DNA of 64,000 nucleotides from Algoriella xinjiangensis. Its GTDB lineage: Bacteria > Bacteroidota > Bacteroidia > Flavobacteriales > Weeksellaceae. Made by a program: the position numbers and the translations under genes. The stretch covers positions 124,001-188,000 of the forward strand of contig NZ_FOUZ01000007.1 of assembly GCF_900115015.1 (NCBI RefSeq), given 5' to 3'. The notes beneath the pieces are model-generated. The model worked only from the letters and a program-made list of their open reading frames with translations, ran no database searches and was not told the DNA's origin. Positions 8,799 through 44,822 of this stretch are shown in pieces. Numbering within the stretch: the first letter of the stretch is position 1; every line of letters starts with the position of its first letter.

Positions 8799-9917
8799 TT
8801 ACTCATTCAACATAATCCCACGAATTTTATTTTTAAAAGCTAAATTTGCTTTCCTTTTTTTCAAAATTAAATAAATTAAAATTCCTGCTAATATTAAGAA
8901 AACTGCTGAAATCACAAGATTCATTTTCGTGTATTTTGATGCAATAATTTCCCTTTTGTTTTGCATTTCTTTCGTTTGATTGTCGATAGAACTGTTGATG
9001 GATTTCAGCTCACTTTGTTTTCTTTCAAACCGAATATCTTGGAATTTTTTATTGTAAAATTGGTATTCTGTCAAATTATTCAAAGCCAAATAATTATCTG
9101 CCATTCCTTTATAGATTCCTTCATTTAAAAGCAAATCTCCACTATTTTCAGCCATTTTTTCAGCATCTTCCAACATTTTTAGAGATTCTTGATGTTGATT
9201 ATTTAAATGATACATATCTGCCATTCCTTTATAGGCGAAAGCTTCCAAACTTTTTGCATTGGCTTTTTTCGCAAAAGAAGCCGATTCTATAAAATATTTT
9301 TTTGCATTTTGATATTGGTTCATTTCAATAAAACAATACGCAATATTGTAGCTAACCACACTTAGGTTAGAAAGATTTACTTTGGATAATTTTGCTTGTT
9401 TAAAGTTTTTTTTAGCGATAAAAAACTTCTCCAAAGCCAATTCTGGATTCGCTTGGCTTTTATAAATCATCCCACGAATAGCATACATTTTTCCTAGATT
9501 TGAAAATTTAGAACTACTGTTGGGTATTTTCGAAAGATAATTTTCTGTTTCGTCTAAAGTTTCAAAACTTTTACTAAAAAGTTCCATGTGTTGATATTGA
9601 ATCGCAATGTAAATCACGAGATTTATTTTTAATTCTACTGTAGTAGCTTCATTCAGAAGTTCTTTTGCTTTCAATAAAACTTTTAGTGATTTGTCGATAT
9701 TCCGTTTTGCAACATAAGCATTAGAAATCACAAGGTAAATTTCTATTTTTTTATTTGGATCTTTCTCTTTTCCTAAAAGTTCATTTCCAACTCTTAAGGA
9801 TTCATCGGGGTTATCGTAAATTCCAATCCGTGCTTTTTTTAGGATAGAATCTGTAGGAATTTGTCCAAAACAAAACCAAGAAAAAGTGAAAACAATAAAA
9901 ATAATTAACTTTTTCAT
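8799..9917 (-). CDS. TPR membrane protein, paralogue of the AraC-type regulator but lacking its DNA-binding domain
   Basis: The 372-aa protein has a signal peptide (KKLIIFIVFTFSWFCFGQ), a periplasmic array of tetratricopeptide repeats (about 35-290) and one transmembrane helix (LVISAVFLILAGILIYLIL, about 332-350). It then ends after a short basic tail (KKRKANLAFKNKIRGIMLNE). The layout matches residues 1-360 of the upstream 532-aa regulator, which continues into a cytoplasmic AraC-type helix-turn-helix. Here that domain is absent, and no trace of it lies downstream before the next gene. The start overlaps the upstream stop as ATGA (9917-9914), so the pair is one operon. It may be a truncated duplicate or a sensor-only partner. 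Confidence 0.8.
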   Translation of the reverse strand: MKKLIIFIVFTFSWFCFGQIPTDSILKKARIGIYDNPDESLRVGNELLGKEKDPNKKIEIYLVISNAYVAKRNIDKSLKVLLKAKELLNEATTVELKINLVIYIAIQYQHMELFSKSFETLDETENYLSKIPNSSSKFSNLGKMYAIRGMIYKSQANPELALEKFFIAKKNFKQAKLSKVNLSNLSVVSYNIAYCFIEMNQYQNAKKYFIESASFAKKANAKSLEAFAYKGMADMYHLNNQHQESLKMLEDAEKMAENSGDLLLNEGIYKGMADNYLALNNLTEYQFYNKKFQDIRFERKQSELKSINSSIDNQTKEMQNKREIIASKYTKMNLVISAVFLILAGILIYLILKKRKANLAFKNKIRGIMLNE

Positions 9918-34896: not shown

Positions 34897-36255
34897 ATGA
34901 CATTAGATGAATTAAAACACTATACTGTTCGGGTAAATAATGGAAGTGGGTGTTTATTTCAACCGATATTAGATGAAAATAATTATACCTACATTTTGAC
35001 AGCCAAGCACCTATTCGAAGATGTAAAGCAAGATATAAATGGTAATAATATTCCACATGTAATTCAAGATGGAACAAATATTTCTATTGTTAGACAAGTG
35101 AATGTTGATGGTCAATGGCAAAAGATTTCAATCCCATTTACTCTAGTGAGAGGAAAAACGTACTTCCCTCATAAAGATGCTGATGCAGCGATATTAAAAA
35201 TAAATTATTTGTCTCCTCAATTTGATAGAATTGTTTCTATTGATGTTCCAAAAATAAATAATGGATTCTATCTAAATGGATTTCCAAATCAATTTGGAGG
35301 ACAAGTTGGTGAAGAGTATACGACATATAGTATTAGAGAGATTGAAGCTTCAGGTAATTATTCTCAAAATGCTCAACTTACAAATCAAGTATTAAATAAG
35401 GAGCAAATTGAAGGAATGTCTGGTGGTGGGATTACATCAGTCCAAGAAGATCATATTTCTATTATAGGAATTCAAAGTAGAGTAAAACATCCGAATTGGG
35501 CTAATGGAAAAATATGCTTTGTTCCTATGAAATATTTTGCTGAGATAATCAATTATGAAGAGTATACCGCGTTATTAACTAAACTGTATCCTCCACACGT
35601 TGGAAAGTTTGATTTCCTTAAAGATGACGCATTTACGTTAAAAGTTGATGCTTGGGATGAAAACATAATTTCCTCAACTAGAATACACTTAAGGAATAAA
35701 GCTTTGAGTGTAATTCAGTCAGATGTAACTCCTATTGGTATAAAAGAATTGTTCAAAAAGAGGTTACTGATAGATGAAACTGAAGATCATTGTTTAGATA
35801 CTAAAAATATATGGATAGCATGGCTGGAATTTCTCACAATAATGAATATAGTAAAGGAAGATAGTCTTAGCATACAACAATTAAGCGAAGTATTTGATAA
35901 CATTAGATTTAAGTATTTAGATACTAATGATTGGACAGATTTAATACCTAACAAACTATCCAAATCGGATTATTTAGGCTTACAAACAGACTCAACTATA
36001 ATTGTCAGTACTAGAATGCCACCAGAAAGACCATTTATAATTCCAAAAGGAAAAATAGTTGATATAGCTAGAGTATATGATAAAAGTGGTTTCAGGACAA
36101 ATAAAGGAATTGACCCCTTTACTTCCTTCAATTTTGTCCATTTAGACTATTTTAAAAAGAAATGCATAATAGATAAAATGGCAACATATCAAAATTTAAG
36201 TGAACAAGAGTTTTTAACGCTACTAAAAAAAGAATACAATGAGTTATTTAACTGA
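34897..36255 (+). CDS. Trypsin-like protease with ABC-3C C-terminal domain
   Basis: The 452-aa protein has an N-terminal chymotrypsin-fold serine protease. The catalytic triad can be placed as His38 (LTAKHLF), Asp94 or Asp96 (HKDADAAIL) and Ser175 (EGMSGGGIT). There is no signal peptide, so it acts in the cytoplasm. The remaining ~270 residues are helical and fit the position of the C-terminal domain that links effectors to the ABC-3C machinery. It overlaps the next gene by 17 bp. I infer an effector protease held inactive until the ABC ATPase senses invasion; the targets are unknown. Confidence 0.8.
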   Translation: MTLDELKHYTVRVNNGSGCLFQPILDENNYTYILTAKHLFEDVKQDINGNNIPHVIQDGTNISIVRQVNVDGQWQKISIPFTLVRGKTYFPHKDADAAILKINYLSPQFDRIVSIDVPKINNGFYLNGFPNQFGGQVGEEYTTYSIREIEASGNYSQNAQLTNQVLNKEQIEGMSGGGITSVQEDHISIIGIQSRVKHPNWANGKICFVPMKYFAEIINYEEYTALLTKLYPPHVGKFDFLKDDAFTLKVDAWDENIISSTRIHLRNKALSVIQSDVTPIGIKELFKKRLLIDETEDHCLDTKNIWIAWLEFLTIMNIVKEDSLSIQQLSEVFDNIRFKYLDTNDWTDLIPNKLSKSDYLGLQTDSTIIVSTRMPPERPFIIPKGKIVDIARVYDKSGFRTNKGIDPFTSFNFVHLDYFKKKCIIDKMATYQNLSEQEFLTLLKKEYNELFN

Positions 36256-36772
36256 AGAATTACAATCTGATATTAAGAATGAGTTCCCTGATATCATATT
36301 CGAATATAGTGAGATAAATTTTGGAGGAATCATTCCAACTTTCTTTATAAATATTAAAGACGAGAAAAATCTAACAAATAAATGGAAAGCTATTACCGAA
36401 TTTATTGCTGTACATTTTCAATCATTGCTCAGAAATGAATTTAGTATATGGAATATTTATCTATTCTTCATTTTGGAACAAGAAATAAAAGATGATCTAA
36501 AATATATTATTGAAAACGACACATTTTCAAGCAGAAAAATTATTATATATCCTAAACAAGAAGTAGAATCAATCATTCAAGAACACATAAAGAATGATGA
36601 TACAGAAATACATTCTATTATTGGTTTTGAAGAAACACCATTTCAACCAAATTCCAATGTTTGGAGTATATTGAATGAAATTAACTATAAAAAGAAAATT
36701 ACTGATGATATTAAGAATGGACTTGATGAAATTATTCGCGAATTAAAAAAAGTAGAGAATGATGAAGTTTAA
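36239..36772 (+). CDS. ABC-3C middle component
   Basis: The 177-aa protein has no catalytic motif. Its features are an N-terminal ELQSDIKNEFPDIIFEYSEI, a central WNIYLFFILEQEIKDDLKYI and a C-terminal helical charged tail (IKNGLDEIIRELKKVENDEV). Its size and its position between the effector gene (17-bp overlap) and the SMC-like ATPase gene (14-bp overlap) are those of the variable middle components of ABC three-component systems. These are thought to bridge effector and ATPase. The assignment rests mainly on context. Confidence 0.65.
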   Translation: MSYLTEELQSDIKNEFPDIIFEYSEINFGGIIPTFFINIKDEKNLTNKWKAITEFIAVHFQSLLRNEFSIWNIYLFFILEQEIKDDLKYIIENDTFSSRKIIIYPKQEVESIIQEHIKNDDTEIHSIIGFEETPFQPNSNVWSILNEINYKKKITDDIKNGLDEIIRELKKVENDEV

Positions 36773-39700
36773 AAAAATAGAGATATCGGGTTTTAGAATA
36801 TATGATGATCCTAAAGATGCAACATTTGACTTAACGACAGCGTCAGATAAACCTGCAGGTTTTATATCATTATATGCACCTAATGGATTTGGTAAAACAT
36901 CGTTTTATGATGCAGTCGAATATGGGATAACAGGTTCTATAAATAGATTTTTCGTAGGCAAAAGAGAACTTGATAAATTGGCTAATTTTCAGAATCAAGA
37001 GAACGAATTATCTTTTATTAGAAATATAAAATCTCCACCAGAAAGAGAGACATATATAAATATTACTACAGATTCAGATAAAGAGTCCATTATCAGTAAG
37101 AAATTTAAAAAACATGGTAATCAAACTCATGATTTAAACTTCAAAATAAAACCTGAAGTCCATGAATTTCAAAAAGTAATATTATCTCAAGAATGGATAA
37201 CCGCATTTTTAACTGAACAGGATGGTGAGTACCGTTATGAGAAGTTCATGGAAATACCTGAATTATCGAGTATCAACGAATATTATAACAAGCTTAAGCA
37301 AACCTATTCTGTTCATGACTCTAAAAAGAATAAACTTAAAGACAATATTGTAGAATTTGAGAAGAGTATTCAAAATATAGATTCTGAAAATTTACTTGAC
37401 ACTGTTAATAATCAAATTCAATTATTAGTAGAAAAATTTAAAGAACAGTCTCTTACATTTTTATCACTTGAAAGCACGAAAGAAGACATAAAGAGACTGA
37501 AAGATATTATCGCAAACAGAACTATTTCCAGTAATAATGAGTCTAAATTGATAAAATTATTGGAATATGTAGATGTATCAAAATCAGGCAATGATTCGAT
37601 TATGGGAATTAAAGCCTACTTCACAATTCAAGATAGTAATCAAAGAAATCACAAGAGATTATTAGAAATACAACAGCTCATAGAGAGATTTGAAAGTTTT
37701 GAAAAAATAGGAATAGAAATAGATAATACAAAGAAATCGCAACAAAATTATATAGATGATAAAAATCGAGTAACCAAGTTGATTTTAGATTTTCTGGAAT
37801 ATGAGCGTATATTAAAAGAAATACAAGGAAAAATTAGAACAATATCGCAAAAGGAGATTAATACTGAGGATATTAATAAACAATTGGGTGAGCTAAATCG
37901 AACAGAAATAGAATTACGAAGTCAACTTGAAACGGTATTGAGACAATTGGAAGAATTGGCAACTAAAAAGGCTAAGATTCCTGAGCTAAAAGTAGAATTT
38001 GAAAATCTAAATAATTTAATTCAAAAAACAGGTAAGGAACTAAAAGACAAAAAGGGACAAGCTGATAAAAAGGAGAAAAAACAACGTGAATTAGAAAGTG
38101 CTATCACGAATTTACAACGAATAATCAAGGAAATAACGGATGGAGTATATCCTCAAATTTCTAATAGCGAAAATCAAGAGATAAGTGAATTAGTGCAAAC
38201 ATTAAAAGAAAGTGAGCAATTACTATCTAATGAAAACACAACATTAAAATCTCTTAATTCAACTCTTAAACAACAAGAAACATTAAATCAAACAATATCA
38301 GATTTTATAAAAGCAGGTCTATCTATAGTTAATGAACGTCAATCATCCTCCTGTCCATTGTGTGAAGAGAAATATGATTCTTATAGTGCTTTAGTTGAAA
38401 AAATCACTAATAATAAGGCATTAGATGAAACATTGAAAACACTTCTTGCTCAAAAAAGTAAGAGTGAACTACGCATTTCTGACTTAACTACAAATATAAA
38501 AGAAAGTAAGGAACAGCTTCTTGATATTTATAAAAAGCAATTAGATGGGCTATCCACTAAAAATCAAGAAGAAAGACAGTTGTTGGAAAGTCTAAGACTG
38601 AATATTAAAGATATTGAGTTTGAACTGAATATTTTAAAAGAGAAGAACGAAATCCAAAAACTTGACATAAAAGGATTGTCGTTTGAAATTTTTGAAAAAC
38701 AAATTGATGAAAACTTAATAGAAGTTATTAAAGTAAGAGATATTGTTAAACCTAAACTCTCTGCAAATAAAGAAGCTATTGATAAGGTCAAGGAGCAGTT
38801 AGATTTCTTGAAAAACCAAATAGATTTACTTAAAAAAGAAAATGAAAGTCTAATTAACAATGAAAAATATGTGTCTGTAACAGGATGGTTTAATGAATAT
38901 TTTCCAGGCAAAGAAATAAATAAAGAATTGTTGCTTCAAAGAGACTCTTCATTAACACAAAGTATTAGTCAATTTGCTATTCGACTGAAAGTGGCGGATG
39001 AAAAATATGACACTCTTAATCAAGAACTAACATCGTTTAAAAAAGAGAATTTGTTGCAAGAGAAGTTAGATTTAGGGAAATTGACTCATGAAAATGTTGC
39101 CAAACTTACTGCCTACCGTTACTTCCTAAAAGACAATTTGGATATTGATTTGTCTCAAATGAATGAAACGATTCTATCAAATATAATTGAAGAAAAGCAG
39201 ACAAAATATAAAGCTGATTTAGAATATACACGATCTATACAATTGGAATTTCAAAAATTGGAAAAATTTAGTGAAAATGTTTGGCCGTTTCTACAATCCG
39301 AAAATGCTAAAATGAAACTTGTTGATGCAATGGAAGAACTTCACTTTTTAGAAAAGACAGTTGAGCCAGTAATAAAAACAGAATGTGATAATGCCAAAAC
39401 TTATCTTGAAAATCGAATCAAAAACTTTTTCTACGAAGAATTGATCAATAAACTATACAGGAAAATAGATCCACACCCTGATTTTAAGTCAGTAAAATTT
39501 AAAGCAAACTTTGATTCTGATCATCCAAGATTGGATGTTTTTGTTGAAAATATTAAAAATGAAAATGTTTTAATTCCAAATCTATATTTTAGTACCGCTC
39601 AAATTAATATATTAAGCTTAAGTATCTTTTTAGCGTCAGCCTTGAATTCTAAAGAGTATGACTGTATATTTATTGATGATCCTATTCAATCTATGGATAG

Positions 39701-39890
39701 TGTAAATGTTTTATCTACTATTGACTTATTTAGAAGTTTAGTAGTAAATGAAGGGAAACAAATAATTTTGTCAACACACGATGAGAATTTTCATAACTTA
39801 TTGATGAAGAAAATACCAATGGATTTGTTTGAATCAAAGTTTATAGAATTAGAAGCTTTTGGAAAAATCAAGAATTACCCCCCTAACTAA
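36759..39890 (+). CDS. SMC/Rad50-like ABC ATPase of the ABC-3C system
   Basis: The 1043-aa protein has Walker A YAPNGFGKTSFYDA (39-52), long coiled coils on both sides of a zinc-hook-like SSCPLCEEKY (~528-537), a signature-like FSTAQINILSLS (~944-955), Walker B CIFIDDPIQSMD (~967-978) and the H-loop ILSTHDENF. The canonical LSGGQ signature is replaced by STAQIN, as in several conflict-system ABC ATPases. It is expected to sense or bind DNA and switch the protease/MBL effectors. It overlaps the middle-component gene by 14 bp and ends 17 bp before a strong terminator. Confidence 0.9.
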   Translation: MMKFKKIEISGFRIYDDPKDATFDLTTASDKPAGFISLYAPNGFGKTSFYDAVEYGITGSINRFFVGKRELDKLANFQNQENELSFIRNIKSPPERETYINITTDSDKESIISKKFKKHGNQTHDLNFKIKPEVHEFQKVILSQEWITAFLTEQDGEYRYEKFMEIPELSSINEYYNKLKQTYSVHDSKKNKLKDNIVEFEKSIQNIDSENLLDTVNNQIQLLVEKFKEQSLTFLSLESTKEDIKRLKDIIANRTISSNNESKLIKLLEYVDVSKSGNDSIMGIKAYFTIQDSNQRNHKRLLEIQQLIERFESFEKIGIEIDNTKKSQQNYIDDKNRVTKLILDFLEYERILKEIQGKIRTISQKEINTEDINKQLGELNRTEIELRSQLETVLRQLEELATKKAKIPELKVEFENLNNLIQKTGKELKDKKGQADKKEKKQRELESAITNLQRIIKEITDGVYPQISNSENQEISELVQTLKESEQLLSNENTTLKSLNSTLKQQETLNQTISDFIKAGLSIVNERQSSSCPLCEEKYDSYSALVEKITNNKALDETLKTLLAQKSKSELRISDLTTNIKESKEQLLDIYKKQLDGLSTKNQEERQLLESLRLNIKDIEFELNILKEKNEIQKLDIKGLSFEIFEKQIDENLIEVIKVRDIVKPKLSANKEAIDKVKEQLDFLKNQIDLLKKENESLINNEKYVSVTGWFNEYFPGKEINKELLLQRDSSLTQSISQFAIRLKVADEKYDTLNQELTSFKKENLLQEKLDLGKLTHENVAKLTAYRYFLKDNLDIDLSQMNETILSNIIEEKQTKYKADLEYTRSIQLEFQKLEKFSENVWPFLQSENAKMKLVDAMEELHFLEKTVEPVIKTECDNAKTYLENRIKNFFYEELINKLYRKIDPHPDFKSVKFKANFDSDHPRLDVFVENIKNENVLIPNLYFSTAQINILSLSIFLASALNSKEYDCIFIDDPIQSMDSVNVLSTIDLFRSLVVNEGKQIILSTHDENFHNLLMKKIPMDLFESKFIELEAFGKIKNYPPN

Positions 39891-40136: not shown

Positions 40137-41363
40137 ATGAAATCAAGTATTAAAATTGTTTGCAAAAAGAACGCTTTAGCTGATGGTAAGTTTCCTATTT
40201 ATTTAAGAGTAACTATTGATCGCAAATCAAAATTTTATAAAACACCCTATAGTTGTGATTTGAGAGAATGGAATGATGCCAAAGGAGAATTCAACTCAAA
40301 GAATAAAAACTATCTTCAATCGAATAGAATTTTAAATCAAATTAAAGATGATGCTTCTTTAATCTTAAATGAATTATTAGAAAATAAAAAATCATTTACT
40401 TTAATAGAATTTGATAATATTTATTGTCAAAATTCCAACCTAACCAATAATTTTATTGAGTTCCTAGAATCAAGAATTAAACAGCTCTATGATGCTAAAC
40501 AAATTAGTTATAGCGATTCACATAATGACACTTTGAAATCTTTAAAGAAATTCAAAAGTAATATTAATAAATATTCATTTGATGATATCGATTATAGTTT
40601 TTTATTGAATTATGAAACTTTTCTAAGAAAGACTGGTTGTGAAGATGGAGGAATTGGGGTTTATATGAGGAACATACGCTCAACATATAACATTGCTATA
40701 AAATCTAAAGTTGCAAAGCAAGAACTATATCCATTCAGAGATTATAAAATCTCTTCTTTAAAATCTCAAAAAATTAAAAAAGCACTAACTAAGGAACAAT
40801 TACAAAAACTTATTGATTTTGATATACAACAAATTCCATCAGCTACTAATGCGAGGTATTTATATTTATTTAGCTTTTTTGCAAGAGGTATGAATTTTAC
40901 CGATTTAGCTGAATTAAAATGGGAAGATATTGAACATAGTAAATTCTCTTATAAAAGAAATAAAACAGGAATTAACATTCGAGTAAAAATACCTGAAAAC
41001 CAAATTACAAACGAAATATTAAATTTCTACAAAGAATATCGCCCCTACCCTACAAATTATATTTTTCCAATTTTAAAGAAAAATATTCTTGAATATGAAG
41101 AAGAAGAATTATCAGGTAGAAAACATAATGTTAGAAGCTATTACAATAAACAACTAAAATTAATTTTTGAAAAATTAAATATTGATACTAAGATCAATTT
41201 CTATACAGCTAGACATACCTTTGCTACTATTTCTTTGAAAAATGGAGTACATGTTTCTAAAATCAAACAAGCTCTAGGACATCAATCCATAAAAACAACT
41301 GAAGCATATCTAGAAGATTTTAAAGACGCCGAAATTGATGAAGCTTTTGAGAATTTAATTTAA
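40137..41363 (+). CDS. Tyrosine recombinase/integrase of element 2
   Basis: The 408-aa protein has an Arm DNA-binding N-terminus (KIVCKKNALADGKFPIYLRV), a SAM-like domain (~105-205) and a catalytic domain. The catalytic residues are Arg in FFARGMNFTDL, Lys in SYKRNKTG, the HxxR-type box ARHTFATISLKNG, LGHQSIKTTEAYL with His, and the nucleophile Tyr. All catalytic residues are present. The layout (tRNA fragment, 150 bp gap, inward-reading integrase) repeats that of element 1. The two integrases are clearly distinct proteins, so this is a separate element that used the same tRNA site. Confidence 0.92.
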   Translation: MKSSIKIVCKKNALADGKFPIYLRVTIDRKSKFYKTPYSCDLREWNDAKGEFNSKNKNYLQSNRILNQIKDDASLILNELLENKKSFTLIEFDNIYCQNSNLTNNFIEFLESRIKQLYDAKQISYSDSHNDTLKSLKKFKSNINKYSFDDIDYSFLLNYETFLRKTGCEDGGIGVYMRNIRSTYNIAIKSKVAKQELYPFRDYKISSLKSQKIKKALTKEQLQKLIDFDIQQIPSATNARYLYLFSFFARGMNFTDLAELKWEDIEHSKFSYKRNKTGINIRVKIPENQITNEILNFYKEYRPYPTNYIFPILKKNILEYEEEELSGRKHNVRSYYNKQLKLIFEKLNIDTKINFYTARHTFATISLKNGVHVSKIKQALGHQSIKTTEAYLEDFKDAEIDEAFENLI

Positions 41364-41410
41364 TAAAAAATAAAATCTCTCCATTTTTAGTTGAAAATTT
41401 ACAATTATTT

Positions 41411-41629
41411 TGGGTGTTGTAACTGATTTGGTGAGGAATATAAGGAATTAGTAAATAAATTTTGATATAATATACGTTATTAATAATTTTACACCATAAT
41501 TCAATCATCAAGAGTTTCTTAATTATTAGGAATACCAACCGAGCTTTTACTAGACACGGTGGTTTAGAATGAGGGCAAATCTGCCAAAAAAATAAGGTTA
41601 AATCCACTATTCATTCTCTTGCGATGATT
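41411..41629 (+). ncRNA. Structured RNA-like leader, copy 1
   Basis: No gene occupies this stretch, yet it shares long blocks with 42427-42636. Block A starts TGGGTGTTGTAACTGATTTG and is 26 nt identical. Block B (41495-41515) is 21 nt identical. Block C is ACCAACCGAG (41534-41543) with CGGTGGT (41557-41563) and ATGAGGGC (41569-41576). Predicted pairings are GAATTA/TAATTC (41445-41450 with 41497-41502), ACC-x-ACCG/CGGTGGT, and a closing helix AATCATC/GATGATT (41503-41509 with 41623-41629) extended by AAGAG/CTCTT. It ends about 30 nt before the ATG of the 212-aa gene. A cis-acting leader or a separate small RNA are both possible. Confidence 0.6.
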
Positions 41630-41659
41630 TGTAATTGATTAAATTATAAATTTTGCAAT

Positions 41660-42298
41660 ATGATACAAGCACATTTTAGTACAGAAAAAACGAATGTACA
41701 AACACAAGGAAGCACTTACAATGAAGATTTTGGAGAAGCCTATATTTCTGATTTTAAAAAATTAGCCATCATTAATTATTTTTATATTTACATCGATTAT
41801 ACCATCACTTATGTGTATCGAATCACATCTGATAACTACTTACAGTTAATCGATATCGATCAATTTAATAATAATTTTAAACGTAGAATTGTTGCACAGT
41901 ATAAGTATGACAATAATTTGTCGTTTATAGAAAATCTAAAAACAATAATAACCGAATTTATACACTCTAGAGGTATGTTTGACGGTCAAATTACACAATT
42001 TGAATCTGATATTATTTCTGATGAACTTTATCATCAAATACAGCAAAGCATTGAAGATAAAATGATTGACAATACAAAAAGTGAATTACTGGATTATATG
42101 CACGAGGTAGGTCTAGATCCTGTTGTCCACGACTCAGAAAAAGGTCTTTTTATTAGTAAATGTGTAAATTCTGTAAATCACCCTATTTTTATAGTAATTA
42201 CATCAGAAAAGGAAGAATGGACTTGCGGATATTGTCATAAAAAAGGAGGCCTTACAGAATTAAAAGAATGGATTGAATTTAAAAACTCTAAAAATTAA
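41660..42298 (+). CDS. Unknown protein with a CHC2-like zinc-ribbon C-terminus
   Basis: I do not recognise the family. In this 212-aa protein, residues 1-140 are unassigned (FKKLAIINYFYIYIDYTITY, then FIENLKTIITEFIHSRG and ELLDYMHEVGLDPVVHD). The C-terminal 55 residues show C-x6-H-P-x-F-x-V-x(9)-C-x2-C: SKCVNSVNHPIFIVITSEKE, then WTCGYCHKKGGLTELKEWI. This resembles the CHC2 zinc finger of DnaG-type primases but lacks a toprim domain. It follows the first RNA-like element by about 30 nt, so its expression or activity may be tied to that RNA. It is encoded as early cargo of element 2. Confidence 0.65.
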   Translation: MIQAHFSTEKTNVQTQGSTYNEDFGEAYISDFKKLAIINYFYIYIDYTITYVYRITSDNYLQLIDIDQFNNNFKRRIVAQYKYDNNLSFIENLKTIITEFIHSRGMFDGQITQFESDIISDELYHQIQQSIEDKMIDNTKSELLDYMHEVGLDPVVHDSEKGLFISKCVNSVNHPIFIVITSEKEEWTCGYCHKKGGLTELKEWIEFKNSKN

Positions 42299-42426
42299 TT
42301 GAATTAAACTAAAAAATTATTCAACCATTCACAAATTAAGATCATGAAACAGTACAGATATTGTACATAATTGATGTTTAATCAAGATTTTTTAACATGA
42401 AATAGATAAAAGTAGTTGAATTACTC

Positions 42427-42636
42427 TGGGTGTTGTAACTGATTTGGTGAGGCATAAGAGGAATTAAAAAAACTATAAACTATTTTGATAATTTAAATAT
42501 AATCAATAATATTATATCATAATTCAATCATCAAGAGTACATAAGGTACACCAACCGAGTTTAACAAACCACGGTGGTAAAGCGATGAGGGCTGTTCAGT
42601 CAAAAAATTGTCACTCTCTAAATTCTTAATGATTGA
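42427..42636 (+). ncRNA. Structured RNA-like leader, copy 2
   Basis: This is the second copy of the element at 41411. The identical blocks are at 42427-42452, 42518-42538 (21 nt), ACCAACCGAG at 42550-42559, ACGGTGGT at 42571-42578 and ATGAGGGC at 42585-42592. The spacers differ. The closing helix is TCAATCAT/ATGATTGA (42524-42531 with 42629-42636) extended by AAGAGT pairing with TATTCTT-type sequence after one mismatch. Its 5' strand is invariant between copies, while the 3' strand has changed and still pairs, which argues for RNA structure. It ends 30 nt before the ATG at 42666. The 128 bp before it (42299-42426) hold only a GTACA-GATAT-TGTAC repeat. Confidence 0.6.
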
Positions 42637-42665
42637 TACTGTTTAATAAAGTAAAGTATCAAAAA

Positions 42666-42905
42666 ATGGAAAATTTAACTGAAAAATTTGAAAAAAACTT
42701 GATTTCACTTTCAGATCAAGAAGTAATTAACTCCTTCAATAAAGAGGTGGGTAATACTGGATGGGTAGCTGCACGAGCTCACTTTCTAAAAGCATTAATT
42801 AATCAATTCGAATCAAGAGAAATTGACTATTCAATCATTAAAAATGAAAATACAATTTCTTTCGCGAAAAAGGTTTTTCTAAAAGAAAAAAAACTACACT
42901 ATTAA
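42666..42905 (+). CDS. Small protein downstream of the second RNA-like element
   Basis: From the ATG at 42666 the protein is 79 aa and starts MENLTEKFEKNLISLSDQEV. An upstream ATG at 42633 would begin inside the RNA element's closing helix and is less likely. The sequence is helical and soluble with a distinctive core (INSFNKEVGNTGWVAARAHF, then LKALINQFESREIDYSII). Proteins of this look are, to my memory, common small orphans in Flavobacteriia, with no known function. It directly follows the RNA-like element, parallel to the 212-aa gene after copy 1, and is followed by a perfect 17-bp palindrome. Confidence 0.6.
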   Translation: MENLTEKFEKNLISLSDQEVINSFNKEVGNTGWVAARAHFLKALINQFESREIDYSIIKNENTISFAKKVFLKEKKLHY

Positions 42906-42946
42906 AAAACATGAGCCGATTAGCATAAATAATCGGCTCATGTTTT
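42906..42946. promoter_or_regulatory. Perfect palindrome matching the Fic operator
   Basis: The 17-bp arms AAAACATGAGCCGATTA (42906-42922) and TAATCGGCTCATGTTTT (42930-42946) are separated by GCATAAA. The core 42912-42940 has the same 29-bp layout as the Fic operator at 19115-19143 (TGAGCC-x-ATTA-N7-TAAT-C-GGCTCA). The flanking A and T runs could make it a bidirectional terminator for the genes at 42666 and 44333 before the insertion sequence arrived; an operator left from a lost Fic gene is the alternative. Confidence 0.6.
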
Positions 42947-42955
42947 ATAATTTAT

Positions 42956-44319
42956 GACACTATCCTATAAAGTGTGTAAGTTAAAAAGTTGGGCTTAGAT
43001 TTTATAATCTGAGCCTTTTTTCAAAAATAAGCATAAATTGGTTAAGAACAATACCCCAATTATGAATAGGCATTGTCCATTTTTTAGTTGATTCCTTGAG
43101 TGCTAAATAAACAGACTTCAATACCGCATCGTCAGTAGGAAAAGACATTTTGTTTTTGGTATATTTTCTGATTTTTCCGTTCAGATTTTCGATTAAATTA
43201 GTCGTATAAATGATTTTACGGATTTCCATTGGGAAGTCAAAAAATACGGTTAGTTCGTCCCAGTTGTTTCTCCAGGATTGGATTGCGTAAAGATATTTCC
43301 CTTCCCATTTTGTGGCAAAATCTTCTAAAGCGGCTTTGGCAGCGTCTTTGTTGGGTGCAGTATAAATATGTTTCATATCGGCAGAAAACTCTTTTCTGTC
43401 TTTCCAAACCACGTATTTACAAGCGTTTCTAATCTGATGAACCACACAGATTTGGGTTTGAGATTCAGGAAAAACCGATCGGATGGTGTCTGTAAATCCG
43501 TTCAAATTATCAGTAGCAGTAATCAAAATATCTTCTACGCCACGAGCTTTTAAATCCGTGAGAACGCTCATCCAAAAGCTGGAGCTTTCGTTCTTTCCAA
43601 GCCACATTCCGAGGACTTCTTTTTTACCTTCACGGTTGAGTCCAACAGCTAAATAAATGGTTTTGTTGATGACTTTTGAGTTCTCGCGAACCTTAAAAAC
43701 AATCCCATCCATCCAAACAATTAGATAAACATCGTCTAAGGGTCGATTCTGCCAAGCTACAACTTCACTGGCTACTGCGTTTGTTATTCTGGAAATTGTC
43801 GAAGTGGAAACATCAAAATCATACATTTCTTTAATCTGCTCTTCAATGTCCGAAACGCTCATTCCTTTGGCATAAAACGAGATAATGATGTTTTCTAAAC
43901 CATCGATGATGTTGTGCCTTTTGGGAACTAATGCAGGCTCAAAACTACCTTCACGATCTCTTGGAACTTTAATCTCGGATTCACCGAATGAGGATTTTAT
44001 CTTTTTGGTTCCATGTCCGTTTCGATAATTACCATCGATGCTTTTATCATGTTTTTCGTTGTCCAGATGGCTATCCAGTTCTGCATCAAGCATGTGTTCT
44101 ACGGCCTTCTTGTGGAGTGCTTTGAAGAAAGATGTTAAATCTTCACCATTCTTAAAGGACTTGAAAAAATCCTTGTTGTTTAATAAATCTTCTTTGTTAG
44201 TCATAACTGTATAATGTTTAAAAATAATAAAAAGTTATTTCCAATAAATCTTTTGAGCATTAAAGGCTCAAAATTTATCAGAATAACTTTTTAACTTACA
44301 CAGTTAGTGGGATACTACC
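42956..44319 (-). mobile_element. IS256-family insertion sequence, 1364 bp
   Basis: The element carries one transposase gene and imperfect terminal inverted repeats. The left end begins GACACTATCCTATAAAGTGT. The complement of the right end begins GGTAGTATCCCACTAACTGT. Both continue into an identical GTGTAAGTTAAAAAGTT-type stretch. It is flanked by an 8-bp target duplication, TAATTTAT, at 42948-42955 and 44320-44327. Removing it and one duplicate joins the palindrome at 42906 to the 3' end of the 132-aa gene. The intact duplication suggests a fairly recent insertion. Confidence 0.88.
43002..44204 (-). CDS. IS256-family transposase (mutator type)
   Basis: The 400-aa DDE transposase has an N-terminal region with [38 protein letters not shown] and [13 protein letters not shown], typical of Transposase_mut. 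The catalytic Asp is in [10 protein letters not shown] (~166), the second in [18 protein letters not shown] (~233) and the Glu in [19 protein letters not shown] (~341). C-x2-H is in [15 protein letters not shown]. Full length and intact, so probably active. It sits between the element's terminal repeats on the minus strand. Confidence 0.93.
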
Positions 44320-44332
44320 TAATTTATAATAA

Positions 44333-44731
44333 TTAGTAAACCTTTACCTCTCCTCCATTTTTTTCTTCATAACAACTTGCCCAAGAAAAATAATCATATT
44401 CAATTTCTGACCAACTGTTAGCTTGAAATTCAAAACCATAGTTTAAGTTAACTTGATTCAACTCAAGCGAAACATGTAAACGATCTTTGTCTACAAAATC
44501 AATTGATTTATCAAACAGTGTGTTATCGTTTAGTTTTTTAAGTATAAGTTCTAATATGTTAGCTGGATTATACTTTTTCAACATATTATCTAACATTATT
44601 TCGCCAACAATTACAACGTCTAACGCTTCATTGTAACGATACAAAACCCAGTAATTTTTTAATAATTGAACTTGATCGATTTCAAAATCAGAACAGGTAC
44701 AAAACGTGACATCAGAATAAACTTGACACAT
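44333..44731 (-). CDS. Hypothetical protein, 132 aa
   Basis: This protein is not recognised. It has a Cys-containing N-terminus (MCQVYSDVTFCTCSDFEIDQ), a central hydrophobic strand (DVVIVGEIMLDNMLKKY) and an acidic, aromatic C-terminus (FEFQANSWSEIEYDYFSWAS). It has no signal peptide. It lies directly beside the IS256 element (6 bp from the duplicated target to its stop), so the insertion removed only its downstream flank. It is separated from the type I RM operon by 90 bp and reads in the same direction. Confidence 0.6.
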   Translation of the reverse strand: MCQVYSDVTFCTCSDFEIDQVQLLKNYWVLYRYNEALDVVIVGEIMLDNMLKKYNPANILELILKKLNDNTLFDKSIDFVDKDRLHVSLELNQVNLNYGFEFQANSWSEIEYDYFSWASCYEEKNGGEVKVY

Positions 44732-44822
44732 AAATTTAAGTTTTGATAAATATACCTTCTTCTTAATAGATGCAAATCAATCTAAAAAAACAATTCTAAA
44801 TTCTAAATTTCAAAAATAGACC

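Follow-up and report, generated by a model that had tools for sequence, protein, structure and literature searches.

SAM-I/IV riboswitches behind umuD remnants precede two small uncharacterised genes in Algoriella xinjiangensis

The window, a 64,000-nucleotide stretch of the Algoriella xinjiangensis genome (contig NZ_FOUZ01000007.1, positions 124,001 to 188,000), carries two leaders of ∼215 nt in front of two small genes. What are these duplicated leaders, and how might they act on the genes behind them? Five blocks recur in both copies in the same order: TGGGTGTTGTAACTGATTTGGTGAGG (26 nt), CATAATTCAATCATCAAGAGT (21 nt), ACCAACCGAG (10 nt), CACGGTGGT (9 nt), and ATGAGGGC (8 nt). The leaders and their shared blocks were found where a sequence-only reading had placed them, and its proposal of a structured cis-regulatory leader duplicated before two small genes was borne out. 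A 25-nt core, searched genome-wide with up to three mismatches, occurs at two sites, both of which are the window copies. Because of this uniqueness, and because both copies reach Rfam gathering scores, the repeat is not a product of chance. From the riboswitch onward, both leaders fold more stably, by minimum free energy, than dinucleotide-shuffled sequences (z −3.1 and −2.2).

Composition of the repeat and its surroundings

The repeat consists of two things joined, a 5′ tail of umuD coding sequence and a 3′ riboswitch. The 26-nt block together with CATAAGAGGAATTAA translates as LGVVTDLVRHKRN followed by a stop codon, which is the 3′ coding end of umuD from the UmuDC error-prone polymerase operon. 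Intact umuD genes with this 3′ end lie directly behind umuC in five places in four Empedobacter genomes, and no riboswitch follows umuD in four of the five. The window, in contrast, keeps the tail alone, with just the last 13–14 codons left at each copy: at 41406–41451 (plus strand) for copy 1, which reads LGVVTDLVRNIRN (ending VRNIRN) before the stop and was assigned by identity with the intact umuD ends of L006–L009 and L011, and at 42422–42467 (plus strand) for copy 2, which reads LGVVTDLVRHKRN before the stop and was assigned by umuD identity and by homology to genome G109. The A. xinjiangensis genome has two other umuD paralogues (56% identity), and the remainder of the umuD lineage of the tails is missing from it.

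The 5′ third of the leaders, taken for RNA structure in the sequence-only reading, is thus a coding remnant, and the GAATTA/TAATTC pairing proposed there falls with it, lying in the umuD-tail half and being missing from homologous riboswitches elsewhere. The 5′ half as a part of the RNA was likewise rejected, because, away from the window, a block that stands without a riboswitch belongs to umuD, and riboswitches occur without the block. Exact pattern scans of viral and genome contigs gave no match to the 26-nt block, and BLASTN searches with the leaders in phages and plasmids returned short AT-rich chance matches alone.

The gene order in G109 is umuC, umuD (an intact homologue, Pfam Peptidase_S24), riboswitch, 79-aa gene, a 135-aa gene on the opposite strand, and type I restriction genes. 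Window positions 42420–42959 are 95% identical to this region and positions 44321–44755 are 90% identical; the intervening segment (42960–44320) breaks up the collinearity and holds a mutator-type (IS256-like) transposase gene (43002–44204, minus strand; Pfam Transposase_mut). Copy 1 is 76% identical to G109, and its homology starts at the same G109 base as that of copy 2. A tyrosine recombinase gene (40137–41363, plus strand; Pfam Arm-DNA-bind_5, Phage_int_SAM_5, and Phage_integrase) stops 43 nt short of the first umuD tail. Given the shared breakpoint, the 25-nt direct repeat, and the recombinase gene just upstream, insertions at the umuD 3′ end most likely left the tails behind as copies of an integration-site core. 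The site is treated as putative, since no left-hand partner of the tail was found inside the window.

Directly before the recombinase gene lies a Lamassu-type defence operon (34897–39890) encoding LmuA (trypsin-like and CTD4 domains), LmuC (MComp1), and an SMC-like LmuB, and the leaders lie between this Lamassu-type system and type I restriction genes. This neighbourhood makes a link of the riboswitch genes to defence possible, but most relatives of the riboswitch loci are not near defence genes. PADLOC gave no match for either of the two small genes, and a literature search for SAM riboswitches in connection with Bacteroidota translation control or phage defence found nothing specific.

The aptamer and its SAM pocket

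Both copies cover the whole RF01725 model and exceed its gathering score of 41.1 bits, copy 1 (41500–41601, plus strand) with 55.0 bits and copy 2 (42523–42617, plus strand) with 59.7 bits. The RNA, for which the sequence-only reading knew no counterpart in Rfam, is an ordinary member of a recognised class, the SAM-I/IV riboswitch, described as the SAM-I-IV-variant by Weinberg in 2010 (PMC2864571) and represented by crystal structure 4L81 (PMC5393176). The window copies resemble this class in the order P1-P2-P3-P5, the undivided P2, the pocket bases, the 5′ leader position, and the Rfam score, and they differ in preceding uncharacterised small proteins. SAM-I/IV aptamers are recognised by a P2 that lacks the internal loop and kink-turn of SAM-I and SAM-IV (PMC2864571), and in the cmscan alignment P2 of both copies is a single hairpin without either. 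With SAM-I riboswitches the copies share the bases of the ligand pocket and the P1/P3 core, but they have no kink-turn or split P2 and no P4. The ACC..ACCG/CGGTGGT pairing noticed earlier is real and corresponds to aptamer helix P3.

In SAM-I, positions 6–8, 11–12, 44–47, 57–59, and 87 lie within 5 Å of SAM (PMC6890682). When aligned to SAM-I, both copies keep A6, U7, C8, G11, A12, C44, A45, A46, C47, U57, G58, and A87. The sole change to the pocket is a swap of the 43/59 pair, which is C-G in both copies whereas SAM-I and 4L81 have G-C. The copies also differ from 4L81 in having no P4 hairpin: J3/1 measures 5–7 nt in all aptamers examined, and P4 is not defining for the Rfam family because it lies outside the RF01725 consensus structure. 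A pseudoknot between L3 and the 3′ tail has moderate support across the family (observed mean 9.51 versus 8.30, sd 0.47, for cross-paired sequences). It is possible as ACAA/UUGU in copy 2 and poorly defined in copy 1, where the topmost pair of P1 is also a C-A mismatch.

Among 119 relatives, 33 carry RF01725, as do 32 of a sample of 395 genomes from the class. A set of 51 distinct aptamers, taken from Flavobacteriales and from other members of Bacteroidia, was compared. The P1 pairs equivalent to the ligand-contacting pairs 6-88 and 7-87 are invariant, although the invariance of P1 and J1/2 arises partly by construction, because even the looser location patterns require AT and GA; the conservation of CAACC and GGTG is likewise partly by construction, as the collection pattern fixes both motifs. 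Covariation among homologues is seen at the outer P1 pairs, where pair 1 is mostly U-A, G-C, or A-U and pair 2 is C-G or U-A. Positions 9–10 of J1/2 vary widely (AA, AG, UC, CA, and UU).

The same core stands before metK in nine Bacteroidia genomes (G675, G820, G950, G688, G740, G977, G830, G938, and G791). In G791 (L115) the riboswitch lies between genes in the order metH-RNA-metK, and in G675 (L080) tandem aptamers at 1374 and 1528, 154 nt apart, precede metK. These contexts are the best pointer to the ligand of the core and support SAM as its probable identity. A related RNA type precedes genes for NhaC-family transporters.

Apart from the two window copies, the A. xinjiangensis genome (G000) has a third SAM-I/IV riboswitch on contig C26 (L074, 6569–7287; 48.3 bits), located before a gene for a 201-aa protein that recurs behind SAM-I/IV RNAs across Empedobacter. 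It also has a SAM-I-like RNA (L004; 38.3 bits to RF01725, below the cut-off) beside a homoserine dehydrogenase-like gene. Clustered aptamers were seen in G906, with three SAM-I/IV aptamers within 1.2 kb (L111), and in G741, with two aptamers 1.4 kb apart before a transposase-like gene and a MoxR gene (L096/L121).

The anti-P1 switch and its alternatives

The complementarity of AATCAT and ATGATT, extended by AAGAG, is real, but it does not form the closing helix of the aptamer as had been proposed. It is an alternative helix, in which the 5′ strand of P1 pairs with a downstream anti-P1 segment and thereby competes with aptamer P1 (CAUC/GAUG). In copy 1, the 5′ strand common to both helices is CAATCATCAAGAG (41502–41514, plus strand) and anti-P1 is CTCTTGCGATGATT (41616–41629, plus strand; duplex −10.3 kcal/mol, z −2.8). 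Anti-P1 is overlapped by a predicted hairpin directly before the start codon (41619–41657, plus strand; −12.8 kcal/mol, z −4.3). In copy 2, the corresponding 5′ strand (42525–42537, plus strand) can pair with anti-P1 TTCTTAATGATTG (42623–42635, plus strand; duplex −10.7 kcal/mol, z −3.5), and a hairpin formed by TTGATACT and AGTATCAA lies just before the AUG (42633–42662, plus strand; −7.0 kcal/mol, z −2.5).

This layout recurs in the family. Anti-P1, placed about 30–45 nt before the start codon, is found in 21 of the 22 leaders with assigned start codons (median z −4.0 versus dinucleotide shuffles), and an AUG-proximal hairpin overlapping it in about 20 of the 22 (median z −2.4); several of these leaders are closely related, and the 22 are therefore not all independent cases. 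The AUG lies inside the hairpin stem in many leaders, whereas the hairpin stops 2–3 nt before it in the two window copies. A compensatory change in the anti-P1 pairing (GUAUUcCGAA/UUCGgAAUAC) was seen in L066. This riboswitch (9567–9660, minus strand, G040) has a clean start-codon hairpin and precedes a gene of the N-formylglutamate amidohydrolase family (Pfam FGase), which is not an obvious SAM gene.

The leader layout is most likely that of a translational SAM-OFF switch, the OFF direction being suggested by targets that include metK and a transporter. SAM would bind the pocket that P1, P3, and J1/2 make up and stabilise P1, anti-P1 would be freed, and the hairpin just ahead of or over the start codon could then form and reduce translation of the 212-aa or the 79-aa protein. 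When SAM is scarce, the 5′ strand of P1 would instead pair with anti-P1, which would open the base of the hairpin and allow translation. Transcription of the leaders may come from further upstream. From the aptamer match, the pocket bases, the P1 covariation, the metK targets, and the anti-P1/hairpin layout, all of them computed, we infer SAM binding, the OFF direction, and translational control for the window leaders. Each copy is thus very probably a SAM-I/IV leader behind a umuD remnant that acts as a SAM-OFF translational switch over its gene. The conserved anti-P1 and start-codon hairpin may serve as a model for the translational action of SAM-I/IV riboswitches in Bacteroidota.

The setting among integrases, an insertion sequence, and umuD remnants could also point to decayed riboswitches that were passively duplicated with mobile DNA and lost their switching. 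The P1 mismatch and ill-defined pseudoknot of copy 1 would fit such decay, as would the small overlap of anti-P1 and hairpin in copy 2: it measures 3 nt and both helices coexist in the minimum free energy fold, so this switch may be weak. We consider decay unlikely, however, because both copies score above gathering and retain the pocket, P1, P3, P5, and anti-P1. Moreover, copy 2 and its gene are 95% conserved in another species (G109), and the junction of riboswitch and gene in copy 1 is 81% identical to that of a different genus (L058).

A kept aptamer fold with a shifted ligand, for instance a relative of SAM such as SAH, would explain why the leaders precede unknown genes rather than methionine genes; none of the Empedobacter copies stands before a known SAM or methionine gene, and the variable J1/2 positions 9–10 could reflect such a shift. 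Variants of J1/2 such as CAGAA, however, also occur before metK (L080), and both window copies retain the pocket bases 6–8, 11, 44–47, 57–58, and 87, which makes another ligand very unlikely. An RNA acting in trans, guide-like or recombinase-associated and bound by the adjacent proteins, could be imagined from the recombinase gene before copy 1 and the nucleic-acid-type zinc finger of the 212-aa protein, but it is scarcely credible for a known cis-regulatory class that lies 100–130 nt ahead of the start codons of many unrelated genes, metK among them, and mostly has no recombinase nearby, and no evidence was found for either the trans-acting RNA or the RNA part of a defence or mobility module that the sequence-only reading had considered.

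Small protein families behind the riboswitches

The SAM-I/IV switch of copy 1 precedes a gene for a 212-aa protein (41660–42298, plus strand) with a C-terminal primase-type (CHC2-like) zinc-finger motif, in which C-x5-H and C-x2-C are conserved in a four-member alignment. Copy 2 precedes a gene for a 79-aa protein (42666–42905, plus strand), a member of a riboswitch-associated family of small domains. Neither protein belongs to a Pfam family. When 320 genomes of the family were searched with the 212-aa protein alone, four had a relative (the window genome, G011, G056, and G173), each with an RF01725 match upstream of the gene. The two downstream genes had been regarded as unrelated to each other. 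In the other three genomes, which belong to three other genera, the two families adjoin in riboswitch-led units (riboswitch-224 aa-84 aa in L058, riboswitch-205 aa-80 aa in L059, and riboswitch-93 aa-198 aa-IS3-83 aa in L057), and the two genes are therefore not unrelated; in the window, each has a riboswitch of its own.

A profile of the 79-aa family (three iterations) found 29 distinct members in the collected loci, 23 of them with a same-strand upstream riboswitch core by pattern, in a locus set that is riboswitch-enriched because many loci were fetched by riboswitch. For a further locus (L045), the riboswitch was found on reading the full region (L057). In L046, the domain lies inside a 479-aa protein, and an RF01725 match precedes the preceding gene (L069). 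The 201-aa proteins behind the third Empedobacter riboswitch type have an N-terminal domain related to the 79-aa domain (hhalign probability 88, E 3e-6). In L079 (1183–5590), an apparent operon comprises a riboswitch, metK, a 97-aa gene, two 79-aa-domain genes, genes for 126, 77, 141, and 215 aa, and a second riboswitch.

The model of the 79-aa protein (pLDDT 90) shows three helices and a β-hairpin. Fold comparison gave nothing convincing, the best match being the helices of a SecA segment (VIA-align Z 4.7). The 212-aa model has a mean pLDDT of 68 and is poor at the N terminus; its top Foldseek match, the primase zinc domain 1d0q, is not significant (probability 0.91, E 0.28). PDB sequence searches were empty or at chance level. 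Neither protein matched phage records, and the 212-aa protein had no match in plasmids or viral contigs.

What is new here is a Bacteroidota SAM-I/IV switch that stands repeatedly before small unstudied protein families, sometimes together with metK. Riboswitches show which unknown proteins belong to the biology of a metabolite, and the SAM riboswitch marks these families without a Pfam entry as a probable part of the Bacteroidota SAM response, which offers a handle on their function. Judged by gene context, the 212-aa and 79-aa proteins appear to belong to an uncharacterised set of SAM-controlled genes in Bacteroidota. More tentatively, and with considerable doubt, the repeated cassettes of riboswitch and small protein, some with metK or with MoxR and a MetK-like paralogue, could form an as yet undescribed, SAM-controlled accessory module that is on when SAM falls. 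If so, it would be turned on, for instance, in methylation stress or during attack by SAM-destroying phages.

A plasmid search with the Empedobacter 81-aa relative of the 79-aa protein found one protein, encoded on the Prevotella plasmid pE2-28 (L123, 2384–3695). Its gene lies between a WYL-domain gene and genes for an AAA ATPase and a DNA methyltransferase, and the locus has no riboswitch above the cut-off. WYL-type regulators are also found next to the riboswitch units of L057 and, it seems, of L059. In G950 (L113, 4575–8969), a riboswitch leads genes for a MoxR-like ATPase, a 162-aa protein, a DUF2201-type putative metallopeptidase, and, at the end of the cluster, a divergent S-adenosylmethionine synthetase (MetK-like) paralogue; a second riboswitch just upstream precedes a shortened metK frame.
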